Translations under genes and position numbers: made by a program
The notes under the pieces: generated by a model
Told to the model about the DNA's origin: nothing
What the model saw: the letters and a program-made list of their open reading frames with translations, nothing else
The model's database searches: none
NCBI GenBank assembly: GCA_020845705.1
Contig: JADLFH010000015.1
Coordinates: 1 to 64,000, forward strand
Source of the DNA: Microthrixaceae bacterium
Lineage (GTDB): Bacteria > Actinomycetota > Acidimicrobiia > Acidimicrobiales > Microtrichaceae
Direction: 5' to 3'
DNA length: 64,000 nt
Shown: piece by piece, positions 47,972 to 54,858 of the stretch
Layout of the letters: each line of letters opens with the position of its first letter
Numbering within the stretch: the first letter of the stretch is position 1

Positions 47972-49675
47972 TCAACCCCGGCTGAGCGGCTTGTACTTGA
48001 TTCGATGTGGCTGGTCGGCCTCGGCGCCGAGGAGCTGATGTCGGTACGCCTCGTACTCGGAGAAGTTGCCCTCGAACCACCGCAGTTGGCTGTCGCCTTC
48101 GAAGGCGAGGATATGGGTGGCTATTCGGTCCAGGAACCACCGGTCGTGGCTGATCACCACGGCGCACCCGGGATACGCGTCCAGCCCCGCCTCGAGGGCC
48201 CGCAGGGTGTCCACGTCAAGATCGTTGGTCGGCTCGTCGAGCAGCAACACGTTGCCACCCCGCCTGAGCATCTTGGCGAGGTGGACCCGATTGCGCTCCC
48301 CACCGGAGAGGTCGCCGACCCGCTTCTGTTGGTCCGAGCCCTTGAAGTTGAACGACGCCACGTATGCCCGGCCGTTGACTTCACGGTTGCCGATCTTGAG
48401 GAGATCCTGTCCGTCGGTGATCTCCTCGTAGACGGTGTGATCGGCGTCGAGCGCGTCGCGGGACTGGTCGACGTATGCCAACTGCACCGTCTGGCCGATG
48501 CTCAGCGTCCCGCTGTCGGGAAGGTGATTCCCGTCGGTCTCGCCGTTCGCGGCGGCCACGATCATCCGGAACAAGGTGGTCTTGCCCGCACCGTTGGGTC
48601 CCACCACGCCGACGATGCCGGCGCGAGGCAACTTGAAGGTCAGGTCGTCGATGAGCAGCCGATCGCCGAAGCCCTTCGACAGATGGTCTGCCTCGATCAC
48701 GACATCGCCAAGCCGCTCTGTTGCCGGAATCGTCATCTCGAGTCTCTGGTCCTGGCCGCGAGCGGCGTCGGCTTCGGAACGCAGCTTCTCGTAGGCCGCG
48801 AGGCGGGCCTTGCCCTTCGCCTGCCGCGCCTTGGGAGCCATGCGCACCCATTCGAGCTCGCGTTGGAGGCTGCGGCGACGAGCATCGCTCTGCTTCTCCT
48901 CGAGTGCGAGTCGTGCCTCTTTCTGCTCCAGCCATCCGGAGTAGTTGCCCTCGAAGGGAATCCCTCGGCCGTGGTCCAGCTCGAGGATCCACTTGGCGAC
49001 GTTGTCGAGGAAGTAGCGGTCGTGGGTGATGGCCACGACGGTGCCCGAGTAGTCGGAGAGGAAGCGCTCGAGCCATGCCACCGACTCCGCGTCGAGGTGG
49101 TTGGTCGGCTCGTCGAGCAACAGCAGGTCGGGCCGTTGCAGCAACAGCCGGCACAACGCCACACGGCGACGCTCACCACCCGAGAGGGATGCGACCTCGG
49201 CGTCGCCCGGTGGGCAACGCAGCGCGTCCATGGCGATCTCTACGTTGCGCTCCAGGTTCCACGCGTCGGTGGCGGCAATGCGGTCTTCGAGCTCGGCCTG
49301 CTCCGCCCCGATCCTGTCGAAGTCGGCGTCGGGATCACCCCACGCGGCCATGACCTCGTCATATCGGGCGAGCAGGTCGCGGACCGCTGCGACGCCGTCC
49401 ATGACGTTGCCCATCACGTCCTTGGAGTCGTCGAGTCGTGGTTCCTGTTCGAGCAGGCCGACGGTGAAGCCGGGCGAGAGGCGTGCCTCGCCCTGATAGC
49501 CGTCGTCCAGGCCCGCCATGATTCGAAGGAGAGAGGACTTGCCGGCGCCGTTCGCTCCGAGCACCCCGATCTTGGCCCCGGGGTAGAAGGACAGGTTGAT
49601 GTTGTCGAGCACTTGGCGGTCGGGGGGATGAACCCGCGACACGCCTCGCATGGTGAAGATGAACTGTGCGCCCAT
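47972..49675 (-). CDS. ettA: energy-dependent translational throttle protein EttA (ABC-F)
   Basis: MGAQFIFTMRGVSRVHPPDRQVLDNINLSFYPGAKIGVLGANGAGKSSLLRIMAG; two LSGGE signatures, LLLDEPTNHLDAESVAWLE; possible upstream start 49702. Confidence 0.95.
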   Translation of the reverse strand: MGAQFIFTMRGVSRVHPPDRQVLDNINLSFYPGAKIGVLGANGAGKSSLLRIMAGLDDGYQGEARLSPGFTVGLLEQEPRLDDSKDVMGNVMDGVAAVRDLLARYDEVMAAWGDPDADFDRIGAEQAELEDRIAATDAWNLERNVEIAMDALRCPPGDAEVASLSGGERRRVALCRLLLQRPDLLLLDEPTNHLDAESVAWLERFLSDYSGTVVAITHDRYFLDNVAKWILELDHGRGIPFEGNYSGWLEQKEARLALEEKQSDARRRSLQRELEWVRMAPKARQAKGKARLAAYEKLRSEADAARGQDQRLEMTIPATERLGDVVIEADHLSKGFGDRLLIDDLTFKLPRAGIVGVVGPNGAGKTTLFRMIVAAANGETDGNHLPDSGTLSIGQTVQLAYVDQSRDALDADHTVYEEITDGQDLLKIGNREVNGRAYVASFNFKGSDQQKRVGDLSGGERNRVHLAKMLRRGGNVLLLDEPTNDLDVDTLRALEAGLDAYPGCAVVISHDRWFLDRIATHILAFEGDSQLRWFEGNFSEYEAYRHQLLGAEADQPHRIKYKPLSRG

Positions 49676-49727
49676 GATGACGTGATCGTAGGTGGCCGGC
49701 ATCGAGCGACGGTCACCCGGGACGCGA

Positions 49728-49773: not shown

Positions 49774-51024
49774 TCAGCGTTTCTTGGCTGCTGCCTTCTT
49801 CGCCGGCGCCTTCTTGGCTGCTGCCTTGGCGGGTGCCTTCTTCGCCGGCGCCTTCTTGGCGGGTGCCTTCTTTGCCGGCGCCTTCTTGGCTGCTGCCTTC
49901 TTTGCCGGCGCCTTCTTGGCTGCTGCCTTGGCGGGTGCCTTCTTTGCCGGCGCCTTCTTGGCCGCTGCCTTCTTTGCCGGCGCCTTCTTGGCCGCTGCCT
50001 TCTTCGCTGGTGCCTTCTTGGCCGCTGCCTTCTTGGCCGGGGCCTTCTTCGTTGGTGCCAAAGCTGCCTCCTCGGCGGGCTGTTCTGTCGGGCGAATGTC
50101 TATCAGTTGCTCCACTTCGCGCGGCGGAATGTTGGCCGACGCGAGTGCGAGGTCGATTCCGCGGCGCGGCGTGTCGACACGCGAGACCACGAAGGCGTGA
50201 TGCTCACCGAGGGAGAAGACCGCTCTCGCGCTCTGCGGTGCGGGCGAGCCCATCGACTTCAGCGGCACGTAGCAGCGCGCGCCCGCGGCGATGACATACG
50301 CGCCGTGGGAGGAGAACTCCACGACCTCGCCTTGGACCGTCGCGCCTATCGGGTGCTCGGTGACGAACTGGAGGAAAGCGAGCGGATCGTTGATCGGTTC
50401 AACCGCGGAACGCTTGGAGCGGCGTGGTTCAGGTGTCTCGGCAGACGCTGCCTTGGTGGCCTTCGGCGGCGGCTTCGTGGTGCTCTTCTTCGGCGTCGGT
50501 GGCGATGCCGAGGACTTCTTCCTGGCCGACCTCTCGCGGGGAGCGGGCTTGTCGGTGTTGTTGGCCGTCTTCTGCCTTGCCTCCCGAACGCTGCGTCGAC
50601 TCGCCGGCCCGCGGACCGGCGAGCGCGGGACGAACACCCAGCCGATGCCCGGAACCGGCTTGCCGCCGATGAGGCGCCCTTCGTCGAACAGCCATGGGTA
50701 CTGCCCGTGGAACTCCTGGAAGGAGTCGTTGGAGAAGACCGTCGCAGAGGCGCGATCCGCGATCTGTAGGACGAAGGCATCACCGCGTCCTATGGCTCCG
50801 GCGGGAGGCGTGAGAAGCTCGTTGGCCCGGATCGCCTCTTCGTACTGTTCGGACTCGCTCGGGTCGATCCGGTGGCCGAAGGTGGCGTCGACCACCACCA
50901 CGAGGGTGTCGTGTGGGTGCTCGGAGATGATCGAGCGGACGGCCTCGTCGAGCTGCGCGAGGCTCGGCATGGAGCGGCCCTCGGTAGCGATGTTGGACCC
51001 GTCGATGACGAGTGTTGATGTCAT
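49774..51024 (-). CDS. NYN/PIN-like ribonuclease domain (Zc3h12a-like) + S1-like domain + histone-H1-like (AKKAP)n tail protein
   Basis: LVIDGSNIATEG...DTLVVVVDATFGHRI...GRGDAFVLQIADRASATVFSNDSFQEF...; GATVQGEVVEFSSHGAYVIAAGARCYVPLKSMG; 99-residue Lys/Ala/Pro repeat tail. Confidence 0.82.
   Translation of the reverse strand: MTSTLVIDGSNIATEGRSMPSLAQLDEAVRSIISEHPHDTLVVVVDATFGHRIDPSESEQYEEAIRANELLTPPAGAIGRGDAFVLQIADRASATVFSNDSFQEFHGQYPWLFDEGRLIGGKPVPGIGWVFVPRSPVRGPASRRSVREARQKTANNTDKPAPRERSARKKSSASPPTPKKSTTKPPPKATKAASAETPEPRRSKRSAVEPINDPLAFLQFVTEHPIGATVQGEVVEFSSHGAYVIAAGARCYVPLKSMGSPAPQSARAVFSLGEHHAFVVSRVDTPRRGIDLALASANIPPREVEQLIDIRPTEQPAEEAALAPTKKAPAKKAAAKKAPAKKAAAKKAPAKKAAAKKAPAKKAPAKAAAKKAPAKKAAAKKAPAKKAPAKKAPAKKAPAKAAAKKAPAKKAAAKKR
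49777..50073 (-). repeat. 15-bp-unit tandem repeats encoding APAKK/AAAKK pentapeptides
   Basis: Tail reads as APTKK, then alternating APAKK/AAAKK units with two APAK tetrapeptides, ending in R. Confidence 0.9.
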
Positions 51025-51207: not shown

Positions 51208-54200
51208 TCAGCGGGGCTGGAGCTGGGAGCGGGACCAGGCCCGGGGCTTCAGCGGCGCGAACGCGCGCTCCAGCAGTTCCCGCTGTTCCTGCGCGTGGAT
51301 CAGCGCTTTGCCCGTGGCGGTGCTGCCGGCGTCGGCTCGACTTATGCGGCGGATCTCGTGGCTGTCGCCATGGGATTCGTAGAGCCGGCCCTTGACGCCG
51401 CTCCACGGTCCCATGTTCTCGGGTTCCTCCTGCAACCAGACGATCTCGTGGCAGTTGGGGAACCTGGCGAGCTCCTTGGCCACCGCCTCGAAGGGCCAGG
51501 GGAAGAGTTGCTCGACCCGCGCGACTGCAACGGATGCACCGAGCTCGTCGCGCTTGGCCGCCGCTTCGTGGCCGATCTTGCCTGATGCAAGGACGAGACG
51601 GGTGACCGACTCGGGCTCGAGGGAGGAGGAGTCGATGATGAGCTCCTCGAAGGATCCGCTGTGGAGGTGGCTCAGCGGCGAACGGTAGGTCTTGGCGCGA
51701 AGCCCCGATTTCGGTGTGAAGACGATGAGCGGCTTGGGGGCTTCCATGAAGGCCTGGCGGCGAAGGAGGTGGAAGTACTGCGCGGCGGTCGTGGCGTTGA
51801 CCAGTTGGATGTTGTCCTCGGCCGCGGCGGAGATGAACCTCTCGATCCGAGCGGAGGAGTGCTCGGGGCCTTGGCCTTCGTAGCCGTGAGGCAACAACAG
51901 GACGAGACCGGAGAGCTGATGCCACTTGGCCTCGGCAGAGACGAGGAACTGGTCGATGATGATCTGCGCGCCGTTCATGAAGTCGCCGAACTGCGCCTCC
52001 CAGATCACCAAGGCCCTGGGGTTGCCCAGGGAGTATCCGTACTCGAAGCCCAACGCCGCGTATTCGCTGAGCAGAGAGTCGTAGATCCACAGGTTGGTGT
52101 CCGCTGCGGCAATGGTCTCCAGGGGGGTGAACTCCGCACCCGTCTCGTAGTCCACGAGGGTGGAGTGCCGTTGGCTGAAGGTCCCGCGTCGGGAGTCCTG
52201 GCCGGCGAGTCGGATGGAGGTGCCTTCCTGGAGCAGTGAGCCGAACGCCAACGCTTCGCCGAGCGCCCAGTCGACATCACCGCCGCGGTACATCGAGTCA
52301 CGCTGGTCGAACTGGCGAGCGAGCTTCGGGTGGACGACGAAGCCCTCGGGCGTGGAGCTGAGAGCCGCGTAGACAGAATCGAGTCTGTCGTAGGACACTC
52401 CGGTTTCGACGTGGGGCAACACGCCTTTGGCGGGGGGATGGGGGAGCGCGACGACCTCTCCCTCGGGGGCCGCCTCGCGGGTGGCTTCGAGTGCCGCCTG
52501 GAGCTTCGTGTTGAAGTCGTCGAGCGCCGCCTCGGCGGCCTCCAGGGAGATGTCGCCGCGACGCACCAGCGTCTCGGTATAGAGCTTGCGCACGCTGCGT
52601 CGCTGGTCGATGGCGCGATACATCAACGGCTGGGTGTAGCTCGGGTCGTCGCCTTCGTTGTGTCCGTGGCGGCGATAGCACACCATGTCGATCACGACAT
52701 CCTTGTTGAACCTCTGCCGGAAGGCGAGGGCAAGTCGTCCAACCCGGACACATGCCTCGGGGTCGTCTCCGTTCACGTGGAAGATGGGTGCCTGCACCGT
52801 CTTGGCCACATCTGTGCAGTACTCCGAGCTGCGTGCAGCGGAGGGGGCGGTTGTGAACCCGAGCTGGTTGTTGATGATCAAGTGGACCGTGCCACCGACC
52901 CGATAGCCCTTGATCATCGAGAGGTTGAGCGTCTCGGACACGACGCCCTGGCCGGCGAAGGCCGCGTCTCCGTGGATCAACAGCGGCAACATCGGGAAGC
53001 GCACGTTGCCGACCGGTGGGATCTGGTCCATCTTGGCCCTGGCGATCCCCTCCACCACGGGGTTCACCGCTTCGAGGTGGGACGGGTTCGCAGCCAGCTC
53101 CACTGGCAACGTGCTGCCGGCGCGGCTGACGAATACGCCACTCTGACCCAGGTGGTACTTCACGTCGCCGGATCCCTGGATCGAATCGGGCGCCACATAC
53201 CCCTCGAACTCACTGAAGAGCTGTTCGTAGGACTTGCCCACGATGTTCACCAGCACGTTGAGGCGGCCCCGATGGGCCATGCCGAGGACCGCTCCGTGCA
53301 TTCCGTCGTCCGCGGCGCGATCGAGGATCGCATCGAGGATCGGGATCGCGGACTCGGCGCCGTCGAGGCCGAAGCGCTTCTGGCCCACCCACTTCGTGGC
53401 GAGGAACCTCTCAAGCGCTTCGGCGGCGTTGAGTCGATCGAGGATGTGTGCCTGTTCGTCGGGTTCGAGTCGCTGCGATGCTCCCTCGACCTGTTCCTGC
53501 ACCCAGCGCTTTTCCTCGGGGCTCTGGATGTGGGTGTACTCGATGCCGACGGTACGGCAGTAGGCATCACGCAGGACGTGCAACATGTCGCCCAGGGTCA
53601 TGCGCTCCCGACCGCCGACCGGCGCGTACACGCCGTTGGTGGAGCCGGTCAGGAACTCGCGGTCGAGGTCCCAGATGGTGAGACCGTAGGTGGCCGGGTC
53701 GAGCTCGGAGTGCATGTCGGGCAACTCGGCCGAAAGGGGGTCGAGATCCGCGATGAGGTGCCCGCGAACCCGGTACATGTTGATGAGGTTCGCCACCTGC
53801 ATCTGCTTGGCGACCATCGCGTCCTCGCGGTCGACGGGGTTGATGTCACGTCGCCACTGGACCGAGACGTAGGGCACGCCGATGTCGTGGAACACGGATT
53901 CGTAGAAGTTCTCCGCGCCCAGGAGCAGCTCGGAGACCTGCTTGAGGAACAAGCCCGACTCGGCTCCCTGGATTATCCGATGGTCGTAGGTGGAGGAGAG
54001 TGTGATCACCTTCGAGATACCGAAGTCCGCGACGGTCCTCGGGTCCGCACCCGCGAACGCGGCGGGGTAGTCCAGCGATCCCACACCTACGATGGCTCCC
54101 TGGCCCGGCATGAGCCTCGGCACCGAACGCTCGGTGCCGATGGTGCCGGGGTTGGTTAGGGTGATGGTGACACCGGCGAAGTCGTCGGGTGTGAGCTTGT

Positions 54201-54858
54201 TGTTGTTGGCCCTTCGGATGATGTCGTCGTAGGCGGCGACGAACTCCCCGAACGCCATCGTCTCCGCGGCTCGGATGCAGGCCACGATCAGGCTCCGCGT
54301 GCCGTCGCGCTTCTCCTGATCGATGGCGAGGCCGAGGTTGACGTGTTCGTTGCGGACACGTCGCGGCTCGCCCTCGGGGCCTTCGACGAAGGTGTTGTTC
54401 ATGACCGGGAGGTGATCTGCGATCGCGCGAACCACCGCGTAGCCGATGAGGTGGGTGAAGCTGACCTTGCCGCCACGCGTGCGCCCGAGGTACCCGTTGA
54501 TGATCGAGCGGTTGATCTCCAACAGCTTCGCCGGCACCTCCCGGAAGCTCGTGGCGGTGGGGACCGAGAGGCTCGATTCCATGTTCTCGACGATTCGAGC
54601 GCCGACCCCGCGGATCGCTTCACCATCGGGGCTCGCCGCTGTGGCGGCTGTTGCCGGGGTGGCTGGGGTGCTCGGCTCGGGTGCCGGTGGCGGCGTTGGT
54701 GCCGCCGTGGTCGCAGGCGCACCAGGTGGACGGTAACCGGCGAAGAAATCCTGCCATGTGGGGCTGACCGAGGTCGGGTCTGCTCTGAACTGCTCGTACA
54801 TCTCGTCGACCAACCAGGCGTTGGGGCCGAGGTTGGTGCGATGTTGCTCGTCGTTCAC
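51208..54858 (-). CDS. kgd: multifunctional 2-oxoglutarate metabolism enzyme (KGD/OdhA-like: E2-like acyltransferase + E1)
   Basis: N-terminal MYEQFRADPTSVSPTWQDFFAGYRP; E2 core VKSFTHLIGYAVVRA-type segment (SFTHLIGYAVVRAIADH) and TYDHRIIQGAESG; E1 core HRGRLNVLVNIVGKSYEQLFSEFEG, CYRRHGHNEGDDPSYTQPLMY. Confidence 0.96.
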   Translation of the reverse strand: MNDEQHRTNLGPNAWLVDEMYEQFRADPTSVSPTWQDFFAGYRPPGAPATTAAPTPPPAPEPSTPATPATAATAASPDGEAIRGVGARIVENMESSLSVPTATSFREVPAKLLEINRSIINGYLGRTRGGKVSFTHLIGYAVVRAIADHLPVMNNTFVEGPEGEPRRVRNEHVNLGLAIDQEKRDGTRSLIVACIRAAETMAFGEFVAAYDDIIRRANNNKLTPDDFAGVTITLTNPGTIGTERSVPRLMPGQGAIVGVGSLDYPAAFAGADPRTVADFGISKVITLSSTYDHRIIQGAESGLFLKQVSELLLGAENFYESVFHDIGVPYVSVQWRRDINPVDREDAMVAKQMQVANLINMYRVRGHLIADLDPLSAELPDMHSELDPATYGLTIWDLDREFLTGSTNGVYAPVGGRERMTLGDMLHVLRDAYCRTVGIEYTHIQSPEEKRWVQEQVEGASQRLEPDEQAHILDRLNAAEALERFLATKWVGQKRFGLDGAESAIPILDAILDRAADDGMHGAVLGMAHRGRLNVLVNIVGKSYEQLFSEFEGYVAPDSIQGSGDVKYHLGQSGVFVSRAGSTLPVELAANPSHLEAVNPVVEGIARAKMDQIPPVGNVRFPMLPLLIHGDAAFAGQGVVSETLNLSMIKGYRVGGTVHLIINNQLGFTTAPSAARSSEYCTDVAKTVQAPIFHVNGDDPEACVRVGRLALAFRQRFNKDVVIDMVCYRRHGHNEGDDPSYTQPLMYRAIDQRRSVRKLYTETLVRRGDISLEAAEAALDDFNTKLQAALEATREAAPEGEVVALPHPPAKGVLPHVETGVSYDRLDSVYAALSSTPEGFVVHPKLARQFDQRDSMYRGGDVDWALGEALAFGSLLQEGTSIRLAGQDSRRGTFSQRHSTLVDYETGAEFTPLETIAAADTNLWIYDSLLSEYAALGFEYGYSLGNPRALVIWEAQFGDFMNGAQIIIDQFLVSAEAKWHQLSGLVLLLPHGYEGQGPEHSSARIERFISAAAEDNIQLVNATTAAQYFHLLRRQAFMEAPKPLIVFTPKSGLRAKTYRSPLSHLHSGSFEELIIDSSSLEPESVTRLVLASGKIGHEAAAKRDELGASVAVARVEQLFPWPFEAVAKELARFPNCHEIVWLQEEPENMGPWSGVKGRLYESHGDSHEIRRISRADAGSTATGKALIHAQEQRELLERAFAPLKPRAWSRSQLQPR

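Follow-up and report, generated by a model that had tools for sequence, protein, structure and literature searches.

What does a bacterium do with a protein in which a predicted NYN nuclease domain is followed, in one chain, by an S1 domain and an extended histone-H1-like tail? The question is raised by a gene on contig JADLFH010000015.1 of a Microthrixaceae bacterium, situated in a stretch of 64,000 nucleotides that was analysed as a whole (hereafter the window). A preliminary description made from the sequence had placed an open reading frame at positions 49774–51024 of the reverse strand, which is correct, and had proposed for its product a Zc3h12a-like NYN domain, an S1/OB-like middle module and an H1-like tail, a layout that is now backed by Pfam, a profile search of the PDB, AlphaFold and Foldseek.

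Domain layout and fold

The gene and its parts are as follows:

49774..51024 (-), whole gene, 416 amino acids: NYN domain, disordered linker, S1 domain and H1-like tail (open reading frame; homologues with the same start and end)
50608..51024 (-), predicted NYN/PIN ribonuclease domain, residues 1–139 (PF11977, profile search of the PDB, Foldseek; pLDDT mostly 93–98)
50389..50607 (-), helix at residues 140–157, then a Pro/Lys-rich disordered linker up to residue 212 (pLDDT about 47–56 at residues 161–200)
50131..50388 (-), predicted S1 (OB-fold) RNA-binding domain with the helix before it, residues 213–298 (PF00575, match to the bS1 profile, Foldseek)
49777..50055 (-), histone-H1-like (AKKAP/AKKAA)n tail, final 93 residues (TRF array, composition, codon analysis)

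Two Pfam families were recognised above their gathering cut-offs, namely PF11977 (RNase_Zc3h12a) at residues 4–108 (E 2.3e-6, 27.8 bits, cut-off 23) and PF00575 (S1) at residues 223–293 (E 1.7e-6, 28.8 bits, cut-off 22); the former was matched by 86/86 aligned homologues and the latter by 70/86. The linker between the two domains varies from roughly 46 to 180 amino acids among homologues. As a single sequence the NYN part had no credible match in the PDB (phmmer), but a profile built from 26 diverse NYN domains retrieved KHNYN and ZC3H12A/B/C (hmmsearch, E 2.9e-5 to 5.9e-4), and a profile of 86 NYN-linker-S1 homologues retrieved ribosomal protein S1 chains with E-values as low as 8e-27 (sum over several S1 repeats).

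The AlphaFold model (86-row alignment, tail left out) consists of two confident domains separated by a disordered linker, with a mean pLDDT of 88.3 and a pTM of 0.56. When these were compared with Foldseek, the NYN part matched ZC3H12A/B/C (E about 1e-6, probability 1.00, target TM 0.56–0.67) and the S1 part the S1 domain of M. tuberculosis RpsA (rmsd 1.7 Å). Structure prediction, which the preliminary description had named as a check on the NYN fold, hence returned the Regnase/ZC3H12B/C RNases, and the S1/OB-like nature of the middle module is confirmed by the PF00575 score and the mycobacterial RpsA match.

Active site and basic tail

Five residues of the NYN domain (D8, N11, D82, D100, and E104) are invariant in 86/86 homologues and are paired in the HMMER alignment with D141, N144, D226, D244, and D248 in Regnase numbering. 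The four NYN motifs quoted in the preliminary description are all present and conserved, and the loss of catalytic acids that it had considered was not found, D8, N11, D82 and D100 being invariant. The position of Regnase D225 is occupied by an invariant glycine (G81), leaving only D226 of the D225/D226 pair (as D82), although other NYN enzymes make do with three aspartates, and D46 is an additional invariant acid without counterpart in the Regnases. A D226N/D244N mutant of Regnase-1 is catalytically inactive (PMC4772114), and three conserved aspartates in the equivalent motifs are common to the CRISPR-associated NYN RNase BfrNYN and MARF1 (PMC11346440). Judged by motif and not by structural superposition, D8/D82/D100 would correspond to the NYN aspartates D13/D118/D143 of the latter study. 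Purifying selection is stronger on the NYN domain (dN about 0.16–0.19, dS about 0.8–1.1) than on the S1 domain (dN 0.23–0.49).

The final 93 residues comprise 43 A, 36 K, 12 P, 1 T and 1 R (98% K/A/P), close to the 99-residue tail reported initially. Their DNA is a 15/30/102-bp in-frame array (TRF) in which codons five apart differ at 46 third, 19 first and 5 second positions, and 33 of the 52 differing codon pairs are synonymous; the protein repeat has thus been kept as the DNA drifted. The tail had been called phase-variable in length, a label that is wrong, because the repeat units are multiples of 3 bp and slippage can alter the length of the protein but cannot switch the gene off. Its likeness to the HC2 histone-H1-like family is one of composition only (PF07382, 28.2 bits, below the gathering cut-off of 40). 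Among the complete homologues without unread stretches (n = 82), 77 carry a basic tail (C-terminal net charge of at least +15) and three lack a tail (L085, L102, L110), so it is not essential everywhere; tail lengths range from about 44 to over 400 amino acids, although a few of the very long ones may be frame-shifted MAG sequence.

Tails of this kind are known from actinobacterial TopA, in which lysine repeats increase processivity (PMC7398561), and from HupB, whose DNA binding requires its PAKK/KAAK tail (PMC5676037). These C-terminal repeats resemble the tail studied here but are borne by DNA-acting proteins, whereas the latter sits on a predicted RNase. Similar lysine-repeat runs occur in three other products of the same genome (named by eye), namely topoisomerase I, a small coiled-coil-like protein (C23), and IF-2, where the run lies in the N-terminal region. 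The tail of the coiled-coil-like protein (L158, G000:C23:86000-90500), also (AKKAP/AKKAA)n, is nearly identical to the one studied, and the IF-2 region (L159, G000:C51:106500-110500) has a AKKAAAKKAAAKK stretch.

Distribution and gene neighbourhood

Searching the contigs of GTDB genomes, which also provided the coverage beyond the phylum, yielded 355 related stretches; the record titles of the best 80 of these almost all name Actinomycetota or Acidimicrobiales, the exceptions being a few MAGs whose labels are vague or seem to be wrong. Homologues occur in records named Ilumatobacter, Desertimonas, Aciditerrimonas, and Acidiferrimicrobium. Several others (L021, L028, L041) bear Bifidobacterium breve titles on an Acidimicrobiales gene and neighbourhood, and these titles look wrong. 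The preliminary description had suggested looking for the same domain order across Actinomycetota. In a class-wide sample the family was present in 58/198 genomes, with 43/51 in the window's own order (Acidimicrobiales) vs. a patchy 15/147 in the rest of the class, and no true match was obtained by protein and PF11977 searches of about 271 actinobacterial genomes outside the class (phylum sample of 298). One match outside the class (G250) was spurious, as it sits in an open reading frame that by eye is histidyl-tRNA-synthetase-like.

A mobile or defence origin was rejected, as PADLOC run on the window gene and searches of plasmids and viral contigs all gave no match. The full orthologue is found once per genome and mostly adjoins kgd. 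A second, shorter NYN-like protein without S1 domain or tail was seen at L118:1342-1806 (G087:C36; 154-aa open reading frame); it has 36% identity over residues 5–94 and LLDADTV in place of VIDGSNI as motif 1, and its gene lies beside one that is desaturase-like. Second matches of the same sort, though weaker, came from four other genomes that also carry the main protein. The best reading of the distribution is that of a chromosomal gene kept vertically in Acidimicrobiales, an order of soil and water actinobacteria.

Two neighbours flank the gene in the window:

51208..54858 (-), kgd, multifunctional 2-oxoglutarate decarboxylase/dehydrogenase, upstream (NF008907, 1756 bits)
47972..49702 (-), ettA, downstream (TIGR03719, 927 bits)

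The commonest conserved neighbour is the TCA-cycle gene kgd, located upstream on the same strand at 80/114 loci, many of which have short flanks. Where enough sequence was available, the next gene downstream was xth at 39/63 loci, ettA at 16/63, and another gene at 8/63; in the window ettA follows the NYN gene and xth lies beyond kgd on the other side. When the ettA/xth label was mapped on a tree of 56 homologues, it needed 3 changes vs. a shuffled mean of 14.8, i.e., this neighbour follows lineage. The preliminary description had read a role in translation or RNA quality control from the adjacency to ettA, which is true in the window but weak as an argument given these counts and their clustering on the tree, and we rejected it as the main basis for such a role. 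With ettA lineage-restricted and kgd steady, the synteny points to a stable chromosomal gene rather than to a translation factor.

The arrangement in six relatives (L003, L007, L009, L010, L016, L017) mirrors that of the window, with ettA beyond kgd on the opposite strand and, where the flank allows, xth after the NYN gene. In many relatives (L008, L018, L046, and others), though not in the window, kgd is separated from the NYN gene by an opposite-strand gene that by eye is HAD-hydrolase-like.

Probable function and relation to known nucleases

Taken together, sequence and model make it probable that the window protein is a metal-dependent endoribonuclease that binds RNA via its S1 domain and tail and serves as a housekeeping accessory to RNase E/G. 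In this reading D8, D82 and D100 would hold the Mg2+/Mn2+ with which the Regnase-type NYN domain cuts single-stranded RNA. The S1 domain, mounted on a flexible linker, would grip the substrate RNA; non-specific nucleic-acid affinity, for processivity or retention, may come from the long basic tail, comparable with the lysine repeats of actinobacterial TopA. We infer RNA cutting from the domains and the retained catalytic acids, and this part of the original interpretation is sound; its further step to quality control had rested on the lineage-restricted ettA.

The protein shares its fold, motif order and most of its active site with Regnase/ZC3H12A-C and KHNYN (PF11977), but it has an S1 domain and an H1-like tail in place of the CCCH zinc finger and is therefore Regnase-like, not a Regnase; G81 at the D225 position and the unmatched D46 are further differences. 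Rae1/YacP (NYN_YacP, PF05991) is also a bacterial RNase of the NYN superfamily, to which the window protein is predicted to belong, but of a different Pfam family, and it is not known to have an S1 domain or basic tail. Orthology with it was rejected, as the window protein matches PF11977 and not PF05991, and the YacP-type PF05991 match of the genome is a separate one at C45. RNase E/G likewise combines a nuclease with an S1 domain, and many members have a disordered basic region; since the catalytic folds are unrelated, the analogy is one of working only. Replacement of RNase E/G was rejected as well, this enzyme being nearly universal in the class (187/198 genomes, including that of the window). 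With RNase E/G present and the YacP-type match separate, the window protein replaces neither.

More tentatively, the protein could be a lineage-specific, Regnase-like RNA-surveillance RNase of Acidimicrobiales that is held by its tail on the nucleoid or the ribosome, with RNA cutting coupled to whichever of the two it is. That S1 domain and tail bring the nuclease to (stalled) ribosomes for cutting mRNA or rRNA, in the manner of B. subtilis Rae1, is rather doubtful: the S1 domain is closest to those of ribosomal protein S1 and ettA adjoins the gene in the window and at 16/63 loci, but PNPase, Tex and others also carry S1 domains, the ettA adjacency is restricted to some lineages with xth being commoner, and the protein lies outside the YacP family, with a YacP-type match elsewhere in the genome. 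Unlikelier still is a nuclease kept on DNA by its tail, where it would remove nascent RNA or R-loops or act in repair. Action at DNA is possible because this tail type is known mainly from DNA-binding proteins, binding DNA in actinobacterial HupB, TopA, and Ku (PMC5676037, PMC7398561), and the commonest downstream gene is xth (exonuclease III); against this, adjacency by itself is weak evidence, NYN and S1 families act mainly on RNA, and the AKKA stretch of IF-2 in the same genome indicates that such runs also occur outside DNA-binding proteins. A catalytically dead NYN domain on an RNA-binding scaffold, suggested by the glycine at the D225 position, is very improbable given that D8, N11, D82 and D100 are invariant in 86/86 homologues, that conservation is higher in the NYN part than in the S1 part, and that three aspartates make up the conserved set in BfrNYN and MARF1 (PMC11346440).

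The preliminary description recognised no characterised protein with this architecture, and none emerged from the open-access literature searched; a description of the NYN-S1-H1-tail arrangement was not found there either, though classic NYN/PIN surveys may mention NYN-S1 fusions. Each part is known, and it is the combination, its conservation across the clade and the intact catalytic residues that are apparently undescribed. Enzymes with a Zc3h12a-type NYN domain are familiar mainly from animal immunity. The endoribonuclease proposed here represents a clade-wide, single-copy bacterial NYN family, usually encoded beside kgd, in which the catalytic residues are intact and two nucleic-acid-binding modules have been added, and offers a test case for how an H1-like tail acts on an RNA enzyme as compared with DNA enzymes.
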